Shown: positions 11,701 to 33,477 of the stretch, in pieces
Position numbering within the stretch: position 1 is the first letter of the stretch
Layout of the letters: each line of letters opens with the position of its first letter
The notes under the pieces: generated by a model
The model's input: the letters and a program-made list of their open reading frames with translations, nothing else
Told to the model about the DNA's origin: nothing
Databases searched by the model: none
Translations under genes and position numbers: made by a program
Virus record (IMG/VR): IMGVR_UViG_3300037069_003546
Span: 1-33,477 of that record
DNA from: a virus
DNA: 33,477 bases
Strand: one strand, 5' to 3'

Positions 11701-13761
11701 ATGGCTAATTCACCTTTTATTTATGGCCCTAACGGCGCAACCAGTTTAGTACCAGGAGGAATAACTCTTCCGGGTTCTACCAGCGGCACAATACAAATTG
11801 AACCTAATGCCTCTACCACTTCTTACACGATAATAATGCCAGCTGGCCAGGGCGGCGTATCTACCTTTCTGCAAAACGATGGATTCGGAAATTTAACTTG
11901 GGTTGCGGGAAATCCTGGCACTGTTACATCTTTTGCATTTACAAATGGTGCCAATATCACGGGAACCGTCACAACTCCTACGAGCGTTCCTACTTTATCC
12001 TTAGCTCCTACGAGTTCAGTTCCAGCAGCTTCTAGCTTTGCTTCATGGGATTCCAATAAGAATTTATCTGCAAATAATTTAATTGATGCTTATACAACTA
12101 CCGCCACCGCTGCCGGGACCACTACTCTAACGGTAAGTAGTACTGCACAACAATATTTCACAGGGACCACAACGCAAACCGTTGTTTTACCTGTTACCTC
12201 AACCCTAGTATTAGGCCAACAATTTATAATAGTGAACACATCTACCGGGCTTGTGACGGTAGAATCTTCAGGAGCCAATGTTATCCAAATCATGGCTTCT
12301 AATACTCAATTAATAGCCACGTGTATTTTGACTTCAGGAACGACAGCGGCTTCTTGGAGCATTAGCTATATCGCCCTAGGAATCTCTGTCCCTACTCAGC
12401 CCACGATTCAAAAATTTACATCAGGTTCAGGCACCTACACCACTCCGCCAGGGGTTCAATTTATTCGGGTCCGAATGGTAGGAGGAGGCGGAGGCGGAGG
12501 GGCCGGTGTTGGGAACGTAGGAGGAAGTAACGGCGGCAATACTACCTTTGGAACTACCTTATTGGTCGCAAACGGTGGTTCAGGCGCAACAAATAATAGC
12601 AGTCTTAACGGTGGTGCTGGTGGAACCGCTTCTCTGGGAGGCGTGCCAGGAACTGCGATAACTGGCACTACGGGTGCCTGCGGACTAGATTTGAGCGCCG
12701 GGATTACAGCTGGTGCCCAGGGAGGTAGCGCCCCTTATTTCTCAGGCGCGGGTGCAGGGACTGAAGGAAATGGCGGAAATGGCATTGCAAATACGGGCGG
12801 TGGTGGCGCCGGAGCTATAAATGGCACGACTGCCGGCGGGGGCGGCGGCGGTTCGGGCGGATTCGTAGAAGCGATTATCACTGGCCCCTTAGCAACCTAT
12901 GCTTATGCAGTAGGCGCAGGCGGTGCCGGGGGCAATAGCAGCGGCATAGGGGGTACCGGAGGATCCGGTTATATAGAAGTCACTGAATATTATATCAACT
13001 TAGCCATCAGCACTAATGTCGCTGTCGGAGCGAATACCATTTTAGCAGGCCCTTCAAGCGGAGCTTCAGCAGTTCCCACTTTTAGATCCTTAGCAACCGG
13101 AGATTTTGTAGCTCCTACGATTCAAAACTTTACATCAGGTTCAGGCACCTACACTACTCCGACCGCTCCTAGATCTCCTGTATATATTCGCGTCAGAATG
13201 GTCGGGGGCGGTGGTGGCGGAGGCGGCGGTTCCGGAACTGGTCATACCGACGGTGGAACTGGCGGAACTGGTGGGTCCACAACATTCGCATCTAACACTT
13301 GTGCTGGCGGTGTCGGCGGCGGTGATTATGGCAACGGCATCAGTACCGGTGGCGCAGGTGGAGCACCTACACTAGGCACAGGTGTTGGTACTGCAATGAC
13401 TGGAAACGGGGGAGCAGCAGGTGGAACGAATGGCTCAACTAGAATTTACCCAGGTGGCAGCGGTGGTGCCGGCCCTTGGGGCGGTGCTGCTCAGGGAACT
13501 AACTTAAATACGGCCGGTATAGCATCGGCTAATAACAGTGGATCTGGTGGGAGCGGGTGCGGTTCTAATAACGGCGGTACCTCGGGTACAGGTGGTGGAA
13601 GTGGCGGATATATTGACTGTTTGATCAGTGGAGCAGCCTTAGTCTCTTCTTTTTCATGGAGTGTGGGAGCAGGTGGTGCTGCTGGCACAGCCGGGACCGG
13701 GGGACATGCAGGCGGCGCGGGCGGATCGGGGTATATCGAAGTGACTGAATTTTATCAATAA
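11701..13761 (+). CDS. Glycine-rich receptor-binding adhesin/tail fibre, 686 aa
   Basis: N-terminal 230 residues form a beta-rich shaft (TTTLTVSSTAQQYFTGTTTQ, TQTVVLPVTSTLVLGQQFII). Two tandem copies of a glycine-rich tip domain follow, each starting FTSGSGTYTTP, then IRVRMVGGGGGGG, a long G-rich stretch, and ending SGYIEVTE(Y/F)Y (about residues 235-430 and 470-686). These resemble glycine-rich phage adhesin domains in which polyglycine helices present variable loops to the receptor. The DNA encoding each domain start is a 45-bp near-identical repeat, so recombination could swap or lose a copy. Confidence 0.75.
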   Translation: MANSPFIYGPNGATSLVPGGITLPGSTSGTIQIEPNASTTSYTIIMPAGQGGVSTFLQNDGFGNLTWVAGNPGTVTSFAFTNGANITGTVTTPTSVPTLSLAPTSSVPAASSFASWDSNKNLSANNLIDAYTTTATAAGTTTLTVSSTAQQYFTGTTTQTVVLPVTSTLVLGQQFIIVNTSTGLVTVESSGANVIQIMASNTQLIATCILTSGTTAASWSISYIALGISVPTQPTIQKFTSGSGTYTTPPGVQFIRVRMVGGGGGGGAGVGNVGGSNGGNTTFGTTLLVANGGSGATNNSSLNGGAGGTASLGGVPGTAITGTTGACGLDLSAGITAGAQGGSAPYFSGAGAGTEGNGGNGIANTGGGGAGAINGTTAGGGGGGSGGFVEAIITGPLATYAYAVGAGGAGGNSSGIGGTGGSGYIEVTEYYINLAISTNVAVGANTILAGPSSGASAVPTFRSLATGDFVAPTIQNFTSGSGTYTTPTAPRSPVYIRVRMVGGGGGGGGGSGTGHTDGGTGGTGGSTTFASNTCAGGVGGGDYGNGISTGGAGGAPTLGTGVGTAMTGNGGAAGGTNGSTRIYPGGSGGAGPWGGAAQGTNLNTAGIASANNSGSGGSGCGSNNGGTSGTGGGSGGYIDCLISGAALVSSFSWSVGAGGAAGTAGTGGHAGGAGGSGYIEVTEFYQ
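12403..12447 (+). repeat. 45-bp repeat A in the adhesin gene (start of tip domain 1)
   Basis: Encodes TIQKFTSGSGTYTTP. It matches 13117-13161 at 43 of 45 bases by eye, far closer than the rest of the two domains. Confidence 0.75.
13117..13161 (+). repeat. 45-bp repeat B in the adhesin gene (start of tip domain 2)
   Basis: Second copy, encoding TIQNFTSGSGTYTTP. Recombination between copies would delete one 714-bp unit in frame. Confidence 0.75.
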
Positions 13762-13770
13762 AGGGTATTT

Positions 13771-13959
13771 ATGCCGTATCGTAGCGAAAAACAAAGACGA
13801 TTCTTTCATACAGAAACAGCAAAAAAAGCTGGTATTACCGCGGCAGAAGTAAAAGAGTTCGACCATGCTTCTAAAGGGATGAGCTTGCCTGAAGCGATAA
13901 AGCACAAGAAATCTCATGAAAAGAGAAAAAAGATGTACCGGGGAGGGATGGTAAAGTGA
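13771..13959 (+). CDS. Small basic protein with SEKQRRFFH motif, 62 aa
   Basis: MPYRSEKQRRFFHTETAKKA resembles a widespread small phage protein type that begins M-P-(Y/F)-x-S-E-x-Q-R-R-(F/W/Y), usually found among structural genes. It is strongly basic and helical, ending KRKKMYRGGMVK. Its TGA overlaps the GTG start of the next gene (GTGA). Molecular role unknown. Confidence 0.65.
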   Translation: MPYRSEKQRRFFHTETAKKAGITAAEVKEFDHASKGMSLPEAIKHKKSHEKRKKMYRGGMVK

Positions 13960-14309
13960 GACCGAATAACTGCATTGTCATGAATAACCTCAATTCGGCA
14001 ACCAATCAGAATTCTACCCCTCAATGGACTGATACGATAGTGAGAGCTTCTTTTCAAATCGTTAATACAGGAACCTCCACAGGCTCCGTCCAACTCCAGG
14101 GCTCCAATGACCAAGCCATCGGTCTTCCTGCAAATCAATTTACTCCTACAAACTGGTTCAATATTGGCAGCGCTGTGACTATTAATGCTGCCGGGGTATT
14201 TTCAATTGCAGAACAGGAACTTTGTTACGAATATTTACAGCTTGTTTATACAGTTAACTCCGCGGGAGTCGGGAGCTTATTGGCCAGGATGAAATCATTT
14301 TCTTTTTAA
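13956..14309 (+). CDS. Beta-rich virion accessory protein, paralogue 1, 117 aa
   Basis: Begins with GTG (MRPNNCIVMNNLNSA) and overlaps the previous stop by 4 nt. It is closely similar to the next gene along its full length, sharing QWTDTIVR, DDQAIGLPANQFTPTNWFN-like and LLARMKSFS blocks, and more distantly similar to the 131-aa protein at 10394. Predicted all-beta, uncharged surface protein, probably a virion decoration or receptor-binding subunit. No enzyme motif. Confidence 0.65.
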   Translation: MRPNNCIVMNNLNSATNQNSTPQWTDTIVRASFQIVNTGTSTGSVQLQGSNDQAIGLPANQFTPTNWFNIGSAVTINAAGVFSIAEQELCYEYLQLVYTVNSAGVGSLLARMKSFSF

Positions 14310-14326: not shown

Positions 14327-14680
14327 ATGAGACCAAATAATTGTATTATTATGAATAATCTGAGTGCAGCTTCCAATCAGACTTCTACCGTTCAATGGAC
14401 TGATACAATCGTAAGGGTTTCCTTTCAGGTGGTTAATTCCGGAACTTCAACCGGAACGCTTCAACTTCAGGCATCAGATGACCAAGCTATCGGACTCCCC
14501 GCTAATCAGTTCACTCCTACAAACTGGTTTAACGTGGGTGGAACCGTTTCGGTGACGGGAGCAGGCGTATTTGTGGTTACCCAGCAAGAAGTGGCCTACG
14601 AATATTTAAAGTTAGTATTTACGAGCAGTGTGCCCGGCACAGGGACATTGCTAGCCAGGATGAAATCTTTCTCTCTTTAG
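14327..14680 (+). CDS. Beta-rich virion accessory protein, paralogue 2, 117 aa
   Basis: Tandem duplicate of the preceding gene (MRPNNCIIMNNLSAASNQTS). Differences cluster in the first third and in the VSVTGAGVFVVTQQEV region, while AIGLPANQFTPTNWFN is identical. It has its own SD (GAGG, 10 nt upstream) and is the last gene of the plus-strand cluster. Divergence between copies may reflect different binding targets. Confidence 0.65.
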   Translation: MRPNNCIIMNNLSAASNQTSTVQWTDTIVRVSFQVVNSGTSTGTLQLQASDDQAIGLPANQFTPTNWFNVGGTVSVTGAGVFVVTQQEVAYEYLKLVFTSSVPGTGTLLARMKSFSL

Positions 14681-17191: not shown

Positions 17192-17212
17192 TTAAACCTC
17201 ATTTAAAAAAGG

Positions 17213-17290
17213 CTGGGCCGGCGGGATTCGAACCGCGCAATATTATCTCCCGAAACAGGGGAGCACCTTTACCAGTTTGGCAACGGCCCA
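17213..17290 (-). tRNA. tRNA-like gene, anticodon GUU (Asn), degenerate
   Basis: On the minus strand a perfect 7-bp acceptor stem (TGGGCCG/CGGCCCA), discriminator G, perfect anticodon stem CTCCC/GGGAG with loop CTGTTTC (U33, anticodon GUU), and T-loop TTCGAAT. Departures from a normal tRNA: positions 37-38 are U,C instead of A,A; the T-stem needs one bulged C; the D-stem keeps about three pairs; the variable region is long; the 3' end reads CC then T rather than CCA. T6 follows directly. It may be a decayed or specialised tRNA. An exact boundary call needs a covariance model. Confidence 0.6.
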
Positions 17291-17300
17291 GTTTTAATCA

Positions 17301-17513
17301 GCGCGGGCCATAAGGGGTTCTTTATCTAGTATTGACCCTTCCGCCACATCCCTAGAACGTGACTCTGCACCCGCGCCTTATTATCTCGGATTGGCGTGCA
17401 GTGACGCCTCGTTTTATACTTCACTGACAGGCTCTTACGAACGGGCCAGCGAGCCCTGCCGCACCGTTAACGACACCCACTGTCGGGTTATGCCGGCAAA
17501 GTCTCCGAGATAA
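17301..17513 (-). ncRNA. Structured noncoding RNA region A, adjacent to the tRNA-like gene
   Basis: This 213-nt stretch has no ORF and folds as two closed domains. Domain 1 is closed by a 10-bp stem 17381-17390/17504-17513 and contains 17399-17404/17421-17426 (CAGTGA/TCACTG), 17443-17446/17453-17456, 17457-17461/17494-17498 and 17471-17475/17481-17485. Domain 2 is closed by 17301-17307/17370-17376 (GCGCGGG/CCCGCGC), tRNA-sized at 76 nt but without a T-arm. The strand is taken from the flanking genes and the tRNA-like sequence plus T6 at its 3' side. Function unknown. Confidence 0.5.
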
Positions 17514-17515
17514 AT

Positions 17516-18460: not shown

Positions 18461-18645
18461 GGCTCTTTTTTTTCGTGTTTCTCTAATTCTTTCTTAACCA
18501 ATTCTCTTAAATAATCCTTACCGAAGTAATTGAGAACTGTCTGAAATTCCGGAGTTTCCGTTTTCTTCTCATTGATCATGCGCACACAATATTTACCCAA
18601 TGATTCAGCCATTCCCCATGTTAGAGGAAATTTAGGTTTGATCAT
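18445..18645 (-). CDS. Small hypothetical protein, 66 aa
   Basis: Helical protein MIKPKFPLTWGMAESLGKYC with a lysine/glutamate-rich C-terminus. Its ATG overlaps the TGA of the HNH gene, and its 3' end overlaps the 60-aa membrane gene by 16 nt. No family recognised. Confidence 0.6.
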   Translation of the reverse strand: MIKPKFPLTWGMAESLGKYCVRMINEKKTETPEFQTVLNYFGKDYLRELVKKELEKHEKKEPCENS

Positions 18646-19178
18646 TTAGGACGCCAATCGGTTTCGTCCCAAGCCCCCTTACCGAGATTACAGGGTTTAC
18701 AAAGAACCTGTAGATTTTTAGAATCAAGCGCTAGCTGAGGATATTTAGAACGAGGCTTGATATGATCGACCTGTATTATTCCTGATGAAGTTCCACAAAT
18801 CATACATTTTCTTCCATATTTAAGAAATATCTCGTACCTAAGTTTAAGCCATCTTGGATTAGTGTAAAAAGATTTGTCGTAATTAGATTCTAGTTCCTCG
18901 GAGAGCTTATTAAAGCCAATAGCTTTGCTTTCCACTTCTGACGCATTCTTAGGAAGATATTTATAAAATACACATAATCTGCAAACCTGCCTGGTATGTT
19001 TTTGACCGTCTTTAAAGATCACATCCTGTAGATAAAGATTCCATGGACGACATTCCGGTTTGCAACGATTTTTTCTCTTAGGATATTTTATCTTACATAG
19101 ATTGGAACAATATTTCCCGGTGACTCCTTCGTTCCTAGGATAGGTCTTTGCACATCCTCTACATATGGAATTTTTCAA
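18642..19178 (-). CDS. HNH endonuclease with N-terminal zinc motifs, 178 aa
   Basis: C-terminal HNH domain: CMICGTSSGIIQVDHIKPRS ... LQVLCKPCNLGKG, with two CxxC pairs, the catalytic DH and the N-x-L-x-x-L-C-x-x-C-N block. N-terminal CxxC-rich segments (CRGCAKTYP, YCSNLCKIKYP, CRLCVFYKYLP) probably bind zinc and help DNA recognition. The TTG start has GGGGGAG 4 nt upstream. Phage HNH proteins act as homing enzymes or in packaging; lying far from terminase and beside noncoding region B, a free-standing homing role is plausible. Confidence 0.85.
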   Translation of the reverse strand: MKNSICRGCAKTYPRNEGVTGKYCSNLCKIKYPKRKNRCKPECRPWNLYLQDVIFKDGQKHTRQVCRLCVFYKYLPKNASEVESKAIGFNKLSEELESNYDKSFYTNPRWLKLRYEIFLKYGRKCMICGTSSGIIQVDHIKPRSKYPQLALDSKNLQVLCKPCNLGKGAWDETDWRPK

Positions 19179-19198: not shown

Positions 19199-19552
19199 GG
19201 CCCCGAGGCTTGGCCCGTAGGGCCGGCCCCCGGATGGGGCCGCCGACGGGGCCGAACAACCAGGAAGGGCGTTAGTTCTTCTACGACTTACACAATCCCG
19301 TACCTAAAAAGGTACACCTCTCCCACTACCAGAAAGTAACATGGTCAATTATATGAGTATGGATTGTGGCCTTTCCACCTATCCGCCAAGTATCGGCTTC
19401 CTGTGCCCGCTGCCGGCTTCCACGGCATTTAGATCGGTACTCTGGGTCTGCCCTTGCAGCTGTCCCTCACATAATCAGAATGACCCCTAATGGACTTCAT
19501 ATCCATCAACCCGCAACCGGGCGCGCCTTGATTGTCAGAGCGAGCTAATACG
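19199..19552. ncRNA. GC-rich structured noncoding region B
   Basis: No convincing ORF on either strand, but dense complementary pairs: a three-stem junction (19199-19205/19247-19253 enclosing 19212-19216/19220-19224 and 19225-19230/19236-19241), 19291-19298/19361-19368 (CACAATCC/GGATTGTG) enclosing 19300-19304/19311-19315, 19411-19415/19423-19427, 19471-19477/19529-19535 enclosing 19490-19494/19502-19506 and 19510-19513/19518-19521, and a crossing pair 19444-19448/19482-19486 that would form a pseudoknot. A plus-strand terminator follows at 19673. An extended -10 box on the minus strand at 19617 leaves the direction unsettled. Could be a large phage RNA or a long HNH leader. Confidence 0.5.
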
Positions 19553-19616
19553 CAGGACCATTTTCCAACCACTTTTTTCGTTAATTTTCTCTTGATTTAT
19601 CTTCCGCAATTTGGGA

Positions 19617-19625
19617 ATTATGACA
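19617..19625 (-). promoter_or_regulatory. Extended -10 promoter element, leftward
   Basis: The minus strand reads TGTCATAAT: a TGn extension plus CATAAT, 5 of 6 to consensus. No good -35. Transcription from here would cross region B and enter the HNH operon. Confidence 0.35.
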
Positions 19626-19672
19626 CCAAGAGGCCATAAACAAAGATGTGGTAATCAAAGTTTATAAGTGCC

Positions 19673-19714
19673 GGGCCGGTTAAAATCAAGTTTTAATCGG
19701 CCCTTTTTATTTTA
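19673..19714 (+). terminator. Strong rho-independent terminator, rightward
   Basis: A 13-bp stem (19673-19685 with 19691-19703, one G-T wobble) and TCAAG loop, followed by TTTTTATTTTA. It overlaps the end of the convergent 88-aa gene. No plus-strand gene lies upstream, so it implies a plus-strand transcript through region B. Confidence 0.75.
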
Positions 19715-19959
19715 TACTTCTCCTTCCACCTCCTAGACACTTCCCTTAGCTTCTCCGGGTTATTTTCTCTGTACCGAGCCTGAATTATCTTGTATCGTTC
19801 TGGATTCTTTTTCCGCCACTCATTGGCCTTTATGCTGTTGTACTTACTGCGGCAAATCTTACAGGTGTAGTGATACCCAGCCGTCGAATGACTGTTCTTG
19901 TGAAAATCTTCTAAATCCTTGGTCTTTTTGCACTTGTTACAAGTTCTTTTATTTTGCAC
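19693..19959 (-). CDS. Zinc-motif protein related to HNH N-terminal regions, 88 aa
   Basis: CNKCKKTKDLEDFHKNSHST then YTCKICRSKYNS forms a two-CxxC zinc module, followed by a basic repeat (KKNPERYKIIQARYRENNPE). This resembles the N-terminal part of phage HNH/endonuclease VII-like genes, but no HNH catalytic motif follows, so it is either a stand-alone DNA-binding remnant or a truncated endonuclease. GTG start without a clear SD. Confidence 0.6.
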   Translation of the reverse strand: MQNKRTCNKCKKTKDLEDFHKNSHSTAGYHYTCKICRSKYNSIKANEWRKKNPERYKIIQARYRENNPEKLREVSRRWKEKYKIKRAD

Positions 19960-20032
19960 GGAATAAATATTAAAAACCTAGACGCTTGCCTGTCAAGCTT
20001 TCTAAAGCAACCGGCTTTACATCAGCTTATAA

Positions 20033-20062: not shown

Positions 20063-20323
20063 GTGAAGACAATCTTAATACTCATCAGTTTGGTAGTGAG
20101 TAGTTGGGCCTTTGCGGATCAATTCGAAGTCAAAGGGATATTCCAGTGCTGGAAGAACTTCGGACCAGTTCCGGAATATTACCAATGTCAAAGCGAAGGA
20201 ACATTCGAGGCCCATTGCTGTCAGGACGCATTCAATAAGCTAAAAGAAGGCGATAATTGTTGCCACCGGCTTTATTCCGATTGGTTTAAGGGCACCTCGT
20301 GCCAGCAAGGGGGGCATCCATGA
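20063..20323 (+). CDS. Secreted Cys-rich protein, paralogue 1, 86 aa
   Basis: Sec signal peptide MKTILILISLVVSSWAFA, probably cleaved before DQ. The mature part holds seven cysteines (FQCW, YQCQ, AHCCQ, NCCHRLYS, TSC), consistent with disulfides in the periplasm or outside the cell. Similar to the next gene: both mature chains start DQ and contain a (I/R)-x-Q-C ... AHCC ... C order. GTG start with a strong SD that can be masked by a hairpin. Stop overlaps the next start (ATGA). Function not recognised. Confidence 0.7.
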   Translation: MKTILILISLVVSSWAFADQFEVKGIFQCWKNFGPVPEYYQCQSEGTFEAHCCQDAFNKLKEGDNCCHRLYSDWFKGTSCQQGGHP

Positions 20324-20661
20324 AGCTAATGAAGATTCTAGCTATCTTATTCCTAGCTACTTCATGCCAAGCAGATCAGAGCGATTACTCAAATCCTGGC
20401 CCAGATCCACGAGGATCGTCTCCGGGGCTTCCCAAACTCTACCATGTCGTAGGACGCATCCAATGCCAGTCCGATCAAAACTGGGGCTATTACTGCTCCC
20501 CTGACCCAGAGTTGAGAGATGCCACTGACTGTAACAATGGCAATATGCGACTCGAACGAGAACAGGCCCATTGCTGCAAGGTGACGCTCGTCAATGGGAA
20601 GATTCAAACAAACGCATGGAAAATTGATTATAAGCCAAAATCCTGCTCCCCTTTGTGGTAG
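20320..20661 (+). CDS. Secreted Cys-rich protein, paralogue 2, 113 aa
   Basis: Starts MKLMKILAILFLATSCQADQ at the ATG that overlaps the previous TGA. The signal could be cleaved by signal peptidase I after CQA, or the LATSC could be a weak lipobox giving a lipoprotein (Ala at -3 is atypical). The mature chain has a Pro-rich start (NPGPDPRGSSPG) and six cysteines, with AHCC matching paralogue 1. Coupled to paralogue 1, so probably made in fixed ratio. Could act in superinfection exclusion, spanin-like lysis or envelope modification; none is shown. Confidence 0.65.
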   Translation: MKLMKILAILFLATSCQADQSDYSNPGPDPRGSSPGLPKLYHVVGRIQCQSDQNWGYYCSPDPELRDATDCNNGNMRLEREQAHCCKVTLVNGKIQTNAWKIDYKPKSCSPLW

Positions 20662-20690
20662 GGATTTTGAAGAGAGAAAAGAGATGAATT

Positions 20691-21290
20691 ATGTGGGAAG
20701 CGTTAGAAGCATTGTTCTATTGGCTGAAATCCAGGGGCAAGGCGCTTCCCACGCCTATTAGCCTTCTGTTAATTGGCATTGTGATGATTTTAACTTATGT
20801 GGTAAGCGTCTCTCACGTCCCAGTTACTGAGCCGATCGGTAAAGAAGTTAGTACCGGTTCAGAAACAAGAGGGATGCAACCATTAAAAACGGTTAGTCAA
20901 TATAACTCCTCCCCTGCTCTTGTTCCTCTTGAGCGGGGGAATTTAGCCGCAGTACAACGACTTCCATTGGGACAAGGGCCCTTGTCCCTGGGCCGCAAGG
21001 CCCTAGAAGCCCCCACCAAAATCCAATCCAAAGAACCGGAATCGTATTCCTTTTTCAGAAATTTCTTAGAAGATCAGTTTCAGGCAGAGGGAATCGACAG
21101 AGAATTGGCAAAAGAGTTGTTGGTCCGGATCAAAATGGACCATCCTTTATCCGGCGATGAATATGATCTCAGGATTCCCATCAGAAACGTGTTTAAAACG
21201 TCCTCAGACGAAGAGATAGACAAAATAAGGGATATGGTCTTAGAAGTCTCTAGGAACTCGTTTCAGGCCTATTCCGGACTAGAGGAATAG
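20691..21290 (+). CDS. Membrane-anchored protein with soluble C-terminal domain, 199 aa
   Basis: A 21-residue N-terminal part with positive charges, one membrane helix (ISLLLIGIVMILTYVVSVSH, about 22-42), a Ser/Pro-rich linker, and a helical C-terminal domain (about 125-199: FLEDQFQAEGIDRELAKELL, EIDKIRDMVLEVSRNSF). Charges suggest the C-terminus is outside. Third gene of the secreted-protein operon, so it may anchor or work with the Cys-rich pair. An i-spanin-like role is possible, but the domain is not a typical spanin coiled coil. Family not recognised. Confidence 0.6.
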   Translation: MWEALEALFYWLKSRGKALPTPISLLLIGIVMILTYVVSVSHVPVTEPIGKEVSTGSETRGMQPLKTVSQYNSSPALVPLERGNLAAVQRLPLGQGPLSLGRKALEAPTKIQSKEPESYSFFRNFLEDQFQAEGIDRELAKELLVRIKMDHPLSGDEYDLRIPIRNVFKTSSDEEIDKIRDMVLEVSRNSFQAYSGLEE

Positions 21291-22263: not shown

Positions 22264-22300
22264 AAAATAAAAAGGGCCGGAAATGAAGATAACCGGCCCC
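22264..22300 (-). terminator. Rho-independent terminator after the ERF gene
   Basis: Minus strand GGGCCGG (22293-22299) pairs with CCGGCCC (22274-22280), 12-nt loop, followed by TTTTTATTT (22265-22273). It separates the ERF transcript from the HTH transcript. Confidence 0.75.
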
Positions 22301-23480: not shown

Positions 23481-23483
23481 TGA

Positions 23484-23522
23484 AAACCCCCGGTTGCTTT
23501 TCAGCCGCCAGGGGTTTATGTT
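23484..23522 (+). terminator. Terminator hairpin after the RHH gene
   Basis: AAACCCC (23484-23490) with GGGGTTT (23511-23517), inner CGGTTG/CAGCCG, followed by ATGTTTC. The tail is short, so some read-through into region C is expected. Confidence 0.55.
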
Positions 23523-23542
23523 TCGATCAAATTTTGTAAGGC

Positions 23543-23831
23543 GCTGAGTATTAGTCTCGAAAACAAGGCTCAGCTCCTAGACTGCATGTGAACGGTCTAT
23601 ACGATTCTAATCGTGAAATCAAGCACATTGCAGCTCGTTAACTGGAGAGGTACCCGCAATCCAGAGCCTAAGAGCAGCGTCGAAGTCGGCACTTAGGACA
23701 GAAAGCCAATCCTGGCTATGAGGGACAAGGACGTTTCTCACCGCTTCAGCTAACGAAAAATTCATCCCTAATGGGAACGTGTACCTTGAGTGTAACGGTG
23801 TCCTGGGTACTGAGGGGCCTTCTGCCCCTCA
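23543..23831 (+). ncRNA. Structured noncoding RNA region C
   Basis: About 290 nt with no ORF and a chain of stems: 23543-23548/23569-23574 (GCTGAG/CTCAGC); 23582-23590/23624-23633 (9 bp with a bulge) enclosing 23601-23605/23610-23614; 23635-23640/23751-23756 (TCGTTA/TAACGA) closing a multiloop of 23642-23646/23660-23664, 23667-23672/23692-23697 (CCTAAG/CTTAGG) and 23704-23708/23713-23717; then 23781-23785/23806-23810 and 23811-23818/23824-23831 (8 bp). A perfect terminator follows. The nested, non-crossing arrangement and the terminator support a discrete rightward RNA. Function unknown. Confidence 0.6.
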
Positions 23832-23841
23832 AGCTCCCCTG

Positions 23842-23876
23842 AACTGTTCCGCCTTCCAGGCTGGAACAGTTTTTTA
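23842..23876 (+). terminator. Strong terminator of RNA region C
   Basis: AACTGTTCC (23842-23850) with GGAACAGTT (23863-23871) plus inner GCCT/AGGC, followed by T6. It works only on the plus strand and ends 10 bp before the RusA stop codon. Confidence 0.8.
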
Positions 23877-23886
23877 AGACTTTTCT

Positions 23887-30580: not shown

Positions 30581-33477
30581 TCATCCAATCGATTGAGCTG
30601 CCGGAACTCGTGGCCAGCCTTTTTTCTGCCCAAAAACAACTGTTAGGCCAGAAAATGTTATTCCGGCTCCGGCCGGAAGTCCTGCTGTTGAATTAAAGAA
30701 TTCTTGAAAGGTCATTTGTAATGACTGACATTTCTGATTCTCAAAGTTAATTCTCCATTGTTCTAACTGAGACACTCCGCCATACACTGCCGTAGATCCG
30801 TAGGGAGAATCAGAACCATAAGTGTTCGTCGAATTGAGAGGATTGATATTAAAACTTTGGATGGCCGCCGGATTATAATCATAGGCAATCTTCGTATTGA
30901 GAGAATGAGGACTTTGATAAGTTCCTAGTAAAAACGCCCAATAGGCCCTTTGTAATCCTTGGATCCCTGACAAATTAATCCAGCCCGTTTGAATCTTCAT
31001 CAAAACAGGATCCGCACCATCGAGATAAGAGCCTGGATTTTCCTGAAGCACCTGGCCATAAGGATTGATATAGGTGTGTAGCCCTTGGTAGATAGTTCCA
31101 GAAAGAGCCTTAAGATTCTTAAATGTTCCCCATTGATTGTAATAGTAATCATACATTAAGGTAACATTGTTGGAGAGGGTAAAAATGACATAAGTGGTTC
31201 CGGGGATAGAGTTCGCACTTAACACAGAATATTGATTGTAAGCTTCTACCTCTGCCCCTATATATTTGGTTGAAAGATCTCTTCCTAATAGCCAAATGCC
31301 TTGATTTTGGCTTGCTTGGAACATTAACCCTATCGGTGTAAAAATAATCGAATTATCATTTATTGACCCTACAGCACTGGTGATGAAAATAGGTTCACTA
31401 TATTGATTGTTATTCCCGGTGGAATCAGGACCTATTCCATTAATGTAGTAGAGTGCCTGTGTCTTAAAGATAATTAGCTTATCGTCCATCACAGCCAGTG
31501 TCTGCATAGGGCCAGTTGACCCCTCAGCACTGACCGTAGGACTGACGTATCTTGTCAGATTGAGCGACATCTCTACCGGAGTACTATCTATGATGAGCTG
31601 TGAAAAATTCAGGTTATTTGAATCTTCTGCGTTGATGGAAAAAAGTCTGTTATCGAAAAGGGTAAGTGACTTACAGGCTGGGCCACCCGTATTTTCTAAA
31701 ACCCCTCCGACCGTATAAAGGATCGAGTTGCCCACAATAGAACTATCTGCCGAAGTATCAGTAATGGTTACCTGATCCGAACTAGTGACGTTCAGCGTGG
31801 GGGATGTAACAGAGGTCACTTGATAATAGGTGGGCTGAGCCGTACTTGCTCTATAAAGCACAATCTTAACCGGATTATTAATTTTATAGGTAAGCCTAAG
31901 AGTAGGGACTTTAATAGTCACGGTATTGGATGATCCACTCAAAGAGCTCGACGACAAAGCAGCAGCTACACTGATTCCTGACCTGTGTATATTGCCTTGA
32001 TTATCCTGCCATTCGTAAGTTGCTATGTAGCTATAAGGCTGAGTAGTGATGGAACCCCCGCTAGAAGCGGCCGTAATTGCGTTCGGATCGAGATCAGGCC
32101 AAAGATGAAAATTCTGCTCACAAAGAGTGTTCCCATCATAAGCCCACATGAATCCGCCTGTCAGATTCAGGTTTCCTCCTATTTCCGCTGAAATTAAAGA
32201 GGAGCTAGAGAAATCTAGTTTAATGAGATTAACCCCCTTCTGCGCGTAAACTCCCTGATTCTGTCCACCAGAAGGTGCATTTTGGTTCTTATTTACCGAG
32301 GCAATAGCAAATTGATAAAGATAAGGGATTGTGACGATAGTCCCCTGTACTGTGGCTGAAGGGATCCCAGCCGTCAAATAACCGCCCCCATTTTGGTAAG
32401 CAAATTTTGCGTAAACATTTCCACTGCTGTCACATAAAAAATAAGTAGATTGATAGGTCGATTGATAGGCAGTCAAAAGGTAAATAGAGCTATTCATGAT
32501 GAATGGCTTCGAAGCGATCCCTACCGATCTCACAATAGTGGCAGGGCTAGATACCGTTCGAGAACTGGTAACAGTCAAGCTACTGATATAATTGGAAGCT
32601 GGACCACTGCTCCAACTATAAGCGTTTGATATTTCATAAAATACCGTGAGAACAGAAAGATTTGCCGAGGTAGCCAGATTTAAAACTCCGCTGCTGCTGG
32701 TAAACTGAGTGGGTATCATTACGGAGTTTAAATTTGCATCTACGGCAAGAACATACCCGCTACTTCCGGCATAATAAGTCACCCAGATGAGATTTAGACT
32801 TAAAGGAGTATTTTCACCAGCCACGCTAATCATCGTCCAATCAACAACAGAGCTATCACGAGTCACAGCACTGGAAACAACCAGCGACCCGGTAAGAATC
32901 ACCATTTTGATTCCAGAAGAGCTTGCCCCGTTATAAGCGATATAAAGTCTATTGTTAAAAACAGCTCCGTCAAATGCCACGGTTGAATGAGGCTGATAAG
33001 ATGCTGCAATATCAGCTGGATTAGTGACGCTAGAGGGCTGAGAGATATCAACGGCGATATATTTTAAATGGTATACCCCTGCTACATTGACCGTATATAA
33101 AATGACAAAGTAATTAGAGAGAAGAAATACCCGAGGAGTTCCGTAAGTGGGATCCGCACTGGCAAGCTGAGTCGGTGGAACGATATACACTCCCGTGGTT
33201 CCATCTAAAACCGCGTAGCTGAAGATATTTGCATTGATATTACTTGGGTTTTGATCCGTATAGACCACACAGACCGAACCATTCGGAGCCGTCACCGCAT
33301 CACATTGCGTCTGATTCGTACTGCTTCTGACCGCTGGTAAAACGCTCAATTGAATAGGTATAAAGTTACCATGAGAGGACCAAGTCTTTGTAGCGCCGGA
33401 ATAAGATTGAAGATTGGTTCCAATAGCCAATAAGTCGTTACTGAAAGTAGAAAGAAACGTATACCCTAGTGAAGGAT
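30581..33477 (-). CDS. Tail nozzle/stabilisation-like protein (P22 gp10 type), N-terminus beyond window
   Basis: At least 965 residues. The frame stays open to the right edge (PSLGYTFLSTFSNDLLAIGT precedes the first possible TTG at 33430), so the true start lies outside. Composition is beta-propeller-like, and the C-terminal half has KSLTLFDNRLFSINAEDSNN, LAVMDDKLIIFKTQALYYIN and TYVIFTLSNNVTLMYDYYYN, matching the repeated 'D-x-RL-F / DDKLIIF' strands of podovirus nozzle (phage stabilisation) proteins, though about twice the size of P22 gp10. It heads the run of ejection genes, as the nozzle does in P22. Confidence 0.68.
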   Translation of the reverse strand, partial: PSLGYTFLSTFSNDLLAIGTNLQSYSGATKTWSSHGNFIPIQLSVLPAVRSSTNQTQCDAVTAPNGSVCVVYTDQNPSNINANIFSYAVLDGTTGVYIVPPTQLASADPTYGTPRVFLLSNYFVILYTVNVAGVYHLKYIAVDISQPSSVTNPADIAASYQPHSTVAFDGAVFNNRLYIAYNGASSSGIKMVILTGSLVVSSAVTRDSSVVDWTMISVAGENTPLSLNLIWVTYYAGSSGYVLAVDANLNSVMIPTQFTSSSGVLNLATSANLSVLTVFYEISNAYSWSSGPASNYISSLTVTSSRTVSSPATIVRSVGIASKPFIMNSSIYLLTAYQSTYQSTYFLCDSSGNVYAKFAYQNGGGYLTAGIPSATVQGTIVTIPYLYQFAIASVNKNQNAPSGGQNQGVYAQKGVNLIKLDFSSSSLISAEIGGNLNLTGGFMWAYDGNTLCEQNFHLWPDLDPNAITAASSGGSITTQPYSYIATYEWQDNQGNIHRSGISVAAALSSSSLSGSSNTVTIKVPTLRLTYKINNPVKIVLYRASTAQPTYYQVTSVTSPTLNVTSSDQVTITDTSADSSIVGNSILYTVGGVLENTGGPACKSLTLFDNRLFSINAEDSNNLNFSQLIIDSTPVEMSLNLTRYVSPTVSAEGSTGPMQTLAVMDDKLIIFKTQALYYINGIGPDSTGNNNQYSEPIFITSAVGSINDNSIIFTPIGLMFQASQNQGIWLLGRDLSTKYIGAEVEAYNQYSVLSANSIPGTTYVIFTLSNNVTLMYDYYYNQWGTFKNLKALSGTIYQGLHTYINPYGQVLQENPGSYLDGADPVLMKIQTGWINLSGIQGLQRAYWAFLLGTYQSPHSLNTKIAYDYNPAAIQSFNINPLNSTNTYGSDSPYGSTAVYGGVSQLEQWRINFENQKCQSLQMTFQEFFNSTAGLPAGAGITFSGLTVVFGQKKGWPRVPAAQSIG

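Follow-up and report, generated by a model that had tools for sequence, protein, structure and literature searches.

A candidate structured non-coding RNA of about 350 nt, apparently present in two diverged copies in a 33-kb phage genome

In the genome of a bacterial virus, two gene-free gaps seem to hold diverged copies of a single folded RNA that is about 350 nt long and has no assigned class. We call these copies B, which lies in the longest gap of the genome (19179-19692, 514 nt), and A, whose gap spans 23481-23886. Both are non-coding; they resemble each other when B is read leftward and A rightward, they contain a common 26-nt motif, and their separate folds have one and the same architecture. 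The reading of B that we consider most likely is therefore that of a structured RNA read leftward, whose paralog is encoded elsewhere in this phage. Whether the two paralogous copies make up a new family of undescribed structured non-coding RNA, most likely free-standing, is in our estimate an evenly balanced question. A preliminary description of region B, made before copy A was noticed, had raised a new RNA class as a possibility, and this idea gains support from the second copy, that is, from evidence lying outside the region then described.

Results

The phage genome and the surroundings of region B

The window, by which we mean the whole 33,477-base contig that was analysed, comes from a 33-kb virus of bacteria encoding terminase, portal, ERF, RusA-like, and lytic proteins, as identified by Pfam and PHROG matches. 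A second contig (L013), identical to the window in sequence, bridges both of its ends by linking position 33476 to position 4 at 100% identity, which makes a complete and circularly permuted genome probable. Nothing closely related to its terminase, portal, capsid, or tail proteins is present in the phage collection; ERF and terminase have almost no relatives among the viral contigs, and the capsid has none among the genome contigs. Structural proteins so nearly devoid of relatives make a same-site comparison across related phages impossible.

Region B is flanked by an HNH endonuclease gene, whose 178-aa product has one HNH domain match, and by an 88-aa endonuclease VII-like ORF (Table 1). The latter begins with GTG, without a ribosome-binding site and roughly one nucleotide away from where transcription is predicted to start, and its stop codon falls within the stem of a rightward terminator. 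Nearby genes had been described as running leftward throughout; three ORFs at 20063-21290 in fact run rightward, and a clear ribosome-binding site precedes the first of them.

The only tRNA gene, tRNA-Asn, occupies 17211-17291, and just upstream of it on the minus strand lies a further GC-rich structured gap, region C (17292-17515). Its two domains are closed by UAUCUCGGA/UCCGAGAUA and by GCGCGGG/CCCGCGC, its fold has a z of -3.1 (0 of 200 shuffles as good), its sole Rfam match is the tRNA, and it has no similarity to A or B. Two adjoining 117-aa ORFs on the plus strand (13956-14309 and 14327-14680, MRPNNCI[VI]MNNL...) are tandem duplicates, and 11701-13761 (+) encodes a 686-aa glycine-rich protein, probably a tail or receptor-binding protein, with an internally duplicated IQxFTSGSGTYTTP...GGGGG...SGYIEVTE unit.

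Table 1. Positions of the RNA copies, their structural elements, transcription signals, and neighbouring genes in the window
Feature	Positions	Strand	Remarks
RNA B	19199..19610	-	Similar to copy A on - only; no Rfam match, no protein-family match
RNA A, second copy	23520..23876	+	Between CopG/Arc-like repressor ORF (+) and RusA-like gene (-)
Shared motif in B	19395..19420	-	GAAGCCGGCAGCGGGCACAGGAAGCC
Shared motif in A	23682..23707	+	GAAGTCGGCACTTAGGACAGAAAGCC
Copy A domain	23635..23756	+	P1 closing multi-branch loop with P2, P3, P4; fold z -3.0, 0/200 shuffles
P1 in A	23635-23651 with 23741-23756	+	15 pairs, two 1x1 loops
P1 5' strand in B	19466..19485	-	GGUCA, 5-nt bulge, AUUAUGUGAG; 15 pairs with 19343-19357
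P1 3' strand in B	19343..19357	-	CUCAUAUAAUUGACC; pairs with 19485-19466
Hairpin UGCCG/CGGCA in B	19411..19427	-	Encloses conserved GAAG; centroid fold
Hairpin P3 in B	19385..19397	-	GCCGA/UUGGC; AGCCA/UGGCU in copy A
Hairpin P4 in B	19361..19384	-	AAAGG loop; loop AAGGAC in copy A
Hairpins P5 and P6 in B	19300..19336	-	P6 GUACC/GGUAC and flanking GUGUACCUU common to copy A
GC-rich three-way junction	19199..19254	-	Just upstream of HNH ribosome-binding site; no U-run after; absent from copy A
Weak extended -10	19617..19625	-	TGTCATAAT (TGNYATAAT); possible B promoter
Promoter-like TTGACA-N18-TAATAT	19967..19996	-	Could drive whole leftward unit including B; count not above chance
Rightward intrinsic terminator	19673..19703	+	Hairpin and T-run; on B's 5' side, antisense to B; overlaps 88-aa ORF stop
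Stem-loop with U6 tail	23841..23876	+	Read as RNA A's intrinsic terminator; one stem bulge
HNH endonuclease gene	18642..19178	-	3' of B; Pfam HNH 1.1e-8, phrog_144 2.9e-17
88-aa endonuclease VII-like zinc-finger ORF	19693..19959	-	C-terminal catalytic half of most relatives missing

Region B considered alone

The GC-rich, non-coding character ascribed to region B is borne out, with a G+C content of 0.50-0.56 against 0.44 for the window and no long frame, the longest stop-to-stop frame contained in the gap being 66 aa. Neither the frames of this gap nor those of copy A have a PHROG or other protein-family match. Since these frames are short and unmatched, and since mismatches in the ungapped A/B block are distributed 5/2/3 by codon phase with no third-position concentration, a protein-coding gene at B or A was rejected.

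The structural elements first proposed for B fared unevenly. The three-stem junction is there, as a very stable three-way junction at the 3' end of the region. The proposed 8-bp long-range helix also exists as an inverted repeat (19291-19298/19361-19368), but at chance level: it is one of three such pairs, and by our own estimate a stretch of 611 nt should contain about three. The core by itself is thermodynamically unexceptional, its fold having a small margin over dinucleotide shuffles for both strands (z -1.3 for plus, -1.5 for minus); a value of -3.5 on the plus strand is owed mainly to the terminator hairpin and the GC-rich junction. Given this weak core z and a long-range helix at chance level, the finding as first written was weakly founded.

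A second gap resembles region B on one strand

The resemblance of the gap holding A to region B was spotted when other long gaps were read. Local alignment of A(+) with B(-) gives a score of 41, against a shuffle mean of 16. Dinucleotide shuffles of B (16,000, maximum 32.5) and local block shuffles, in which local composition is kept (18,000, maximum 36), all stayed below this score. As controls, the best unrelated tile of the window scored 28 and the best among some 5,500 tiles taken from other phage DNA 34.5-36.5, while A against B(+) scored 15, which is the chance level, and reversed B likewise remained at chance. The blocks of similarity are colinear over about 300 nt. Their ungapped heart, CGTCGAAGTCGGCACTTAGGACAGAAAGCCAATCCT in alignment with CGTGGAAGCCGGCAGCGGGCACAGGAAGCCGATACT, yields, taken alone, an empirical p of about 8e-4, and A and B have GAAGNCGGCA-N6-ACAGNAAGCC in common. 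The 26-nt motif pattern, GAAGNCGGCANNNNGNACAGNAAGCC, has two sites in the window at up to 3 mismatches, both with 0 mismatches, where 0.01 would be expected; this expectation is descriptive only, as the pattern was derived from A and B themselves. The A/B comparison was made after several gaps had been inspected, amounting to a dozen or so gap/strand pairs, and with these allowed for, the sequences make homology between A and B highly probable. Because it is only B read on the minus strand that resembles A, we place B on the leftward strand, which is that of the HNH gene; a leftward reading, one of those offered earlier, is thereby supported.

Two separate folds with one layout

Folded separately, A and B yield one layout, in which a 15-bp helix P1 closes a multi-branch loop, the hairpins follow in the same order, and P5 and P6 come afterward. 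The two copies are also alike in the linker ACAG-AA within the multi-branch loop and in a hairpin upstream of the P1 domain, P0, with a UAUUAG loop. Parts found in B alone are an extra hairpin, CUGC/GCAG, and the 3' GC-rich three-way junction. The P1 sequences of A and B are almost wholly different, yet the helix is retained, which is the pattern that compensatory change would give. The search for compensatory changes suggested in the preliminary description thus has a divided outcome: the P1 helix persists although almost every pair in it differs between the copies, but 8-9% of shuffled flanks do as well as either P1 taken alone, and neither of the covariance models built from single copies (R1 and R2) recovers the opposite copy at thresholds up to E 10. 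With two sequences only, and with single-copy models that miss each other, a structure common to A and B is supported rather than proven.

Ends and transcription signals

The 5' end of B is guessed from the weak extended -10, and 19255 and 19199 are the two candidates for its 3' end. The extended -10 had been pointed out before; it is present but weak, five TGNYATAAT sequences being found versus 2.8 expected. It is uncertain whether transcription of B would begin from this element (19625-19617) or arrive by read-through from the promoter-like sequence at 19996-19967.

No terminator of its own separates B from the HNH gene. The rightward terminator reported earlier is real as a hairpin with a T-run, but it is not the 3' end of this RNA; with B fixed leftward, it sits 5' of B and antisense to it. 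Its stem, GGGCCGG..CGGCCC, is not a chance pattern and occurs at just one other place, 22274-22299, after the ERF gene, which identifies it as a genuine terminator of the phage. The putative terminator of A, a strong stem-loop with a U6 tail, went unlisted by the automatic scan because of the one bulge in its stem. Downstream of A, the next gene is on the opposite strand, and there is no sense gene.

Another hairpin, at 23483-23516 on the 5' side of A, is followed on the antisense strand by a U4 tail. Both copies accordingly have a 5'-side hairpin that would stop antisense transcription, and at B no rightward transcript that would need such a terminator is visible.

Searches for known families and relatives

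A cmscan of the whole window against Rfam at gathering scores returned no GOLLD, ROOL, OLE, or HEARO. The same held when B (both strands) and A were compared with the full set of 4,227 Rfam families at E up to 10, a search that returned no introns either; membership of B in GOLLD, ROOL, HEARO, or OLE, raised as a question at the outset, thus finds no support in the Rfam models, and a group I or group II intron at B or A was rejected on the same result. In blastn searches of B and A against phages and plasmids, chance matches alone were obtained. Exact B patterns and the shared motif in all viral contigs, and the shared motif in all genome contigs, hit coding sequence or chance, and no third copy was seen; these contig scans used exact patterns, which more diverged relatives could escape. 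Neither HNH relatives in ten other viral contigs nor endonuclease VII-like relatives were accompanied by this RNA. The best of about 80 loci aligned with A and B (L031) is coding sequence, has no motif, and was rejected. Elsewhere in the genome, neither A nor B has a perfect antisense match of at least 13 nt. As no relative turned up in the collections searched, there is no independent covariation.

Discussion

A homo-oligomeric cage and a frequent location near tRNA genes are characteristic of GOLLD and ROOL. These are large structured RNAs of phages and prophages that lie in gene-free gaps and whose function is still unassigned; the ROOL solved by cryo-EM is 659 nt long, and GOLLD often exceeds 800 nt (PMC12286853). 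B and A are like GOLLD and ROOL in kind, being phage-encoded and situated in gene-free gaps, with a tRNA gene in the leftward unit of B. We nevertheless assign them to neither family, as they measure about 350 nt, occur as two copies per genome, and go unmatched in Rfam at E up to 10, and as the tRNA gene lies 2 kb away from the RNA.

We infer transcription of both copies, free-standing action, and any partner that such action may involve. B would be made leftward and A rightward; P1 would close a multi-branch loop presenting the conserved loops GAAG-CGGCA, ACAG-AA, and AAGG, with two hairpins to follow. The RNA would act free-standing during infection, through its folded shape and not as a message or leader, and the HNH gene would be a passenger reached by read-through, a neighbour rather than a target. 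A free-standing RNA is favoured over an HNH leader because A has its own terminator and precedes no sense gene.

We rank this free-standing RNA first, with about an even chance, and place second a cis-acting leader or antitermination element, a reading that we think rather improbable. B would then be the 5' UTR of the HNH message or of the leftward unit, controlling translation or elongation in a riboswitch- or antitermination-like manner, as would fit its place immediately 5' of the HNH ribosome-binding site, in the sense orientation and uninterrupted by a terminator. A homologous pair of elements near the control region, one on each strand, also recalls phage HK022, whose left and right put sites are related RNA elements in oppositely directed transcripts. 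An antitermination RNA of the put type acts in cis, allowing RNA polymerase to pass terminators that lie downstream; however, put RNA is far smaller than A or B, and copy A, unlike put, directly precedes a terminator, within about 50 nt, without a sense gene. The HK022 put transcript is reported to suppress pausing and termination in the early genes (PMC9378689). A leader or riboswitch would be expected upstream of its regulated gene in all copies, which is not what we find, and the element does not accompany the HNH relatives found in ten other viral contigs, so that the long HNH leader envisaged in the preliminary description is weakened. Another reading is a mobile or decayed ribozyme-like element (an intron, a guide-RNA element, or similar) present in two copies, which we regard as quite unlikely. 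Two diverged copies in one genome, a homing-type HNH gene adjoining B, and the truncated 88-aa neighbour would agree with it, and a structured RNA upstream of a same-strand HNH gene is the arrangement of HEARO and the IscB guide RNA. Against it, group I, group II, and HEARO were all absent from the Rfam matches at E up to 10, copy A is intergenic with no HNH or other nuclease gene alongside, no target-site duplication was seen, relatives of the HNH gene lack such an RNA, and the 178-aa single-HNH protein bears no sign of the larger IscB nuclease.

That the A-B alignment is due to chance, with B a GC-rich spacer or decayed gene bearing ordinary hairpins, is unlikely in our assessment: the weak advantage of the B core over shuffles, the failure of covariance-model cross-searches, and the lack of homologues in the collections searched would be in keeping with such an origin, but 0 of 34,000 shuffles of two kinds reach the A-B score, and an exact shared motif, strand specificity, colinear blocks over some 300 nt, and the same fold topology all argue otherwise. 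Very unlikely, finally, is an RNA on the plus strand, that is, a rightward transcript of about 510 nt ending at the 19673-19703 terminator. This terminator is real, the fold including it reaches z -3.5, and one pair of an 8+8-bp stacked helix (19263-19298/19361-19376) is G-U when read on the plus strand but an A-C mismatch on the minus strand. The similarity to A is nonetheless confined to B(-), G-U pairs on the minus strand in P1 and in the 19491-19511 hairpin turn into A-C on the plus strand, no plus-strand promoter is seen upstream of 19199, and the fold is ordinary once the terminator is left out.

A more specific and tentative possibility is that of a new family of large phage RNAs whose two oppositely oriented, diverged copies act as a matched pair, with region C as a third, unrelated structured RNA in this small genome. 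The members of such a pair may, for example, be two subunits of one RNA assembly, or left and right cis-acting elements.

With about 2% of a 33-kb phage genome given over to two diverged RNA copies, this virus would offer a small and tractable case. A and B serve as mutual internal controls, since comparing them reveals conserved loops and compensatory changes, and deletion of either copy, or of both jointly, is possible.
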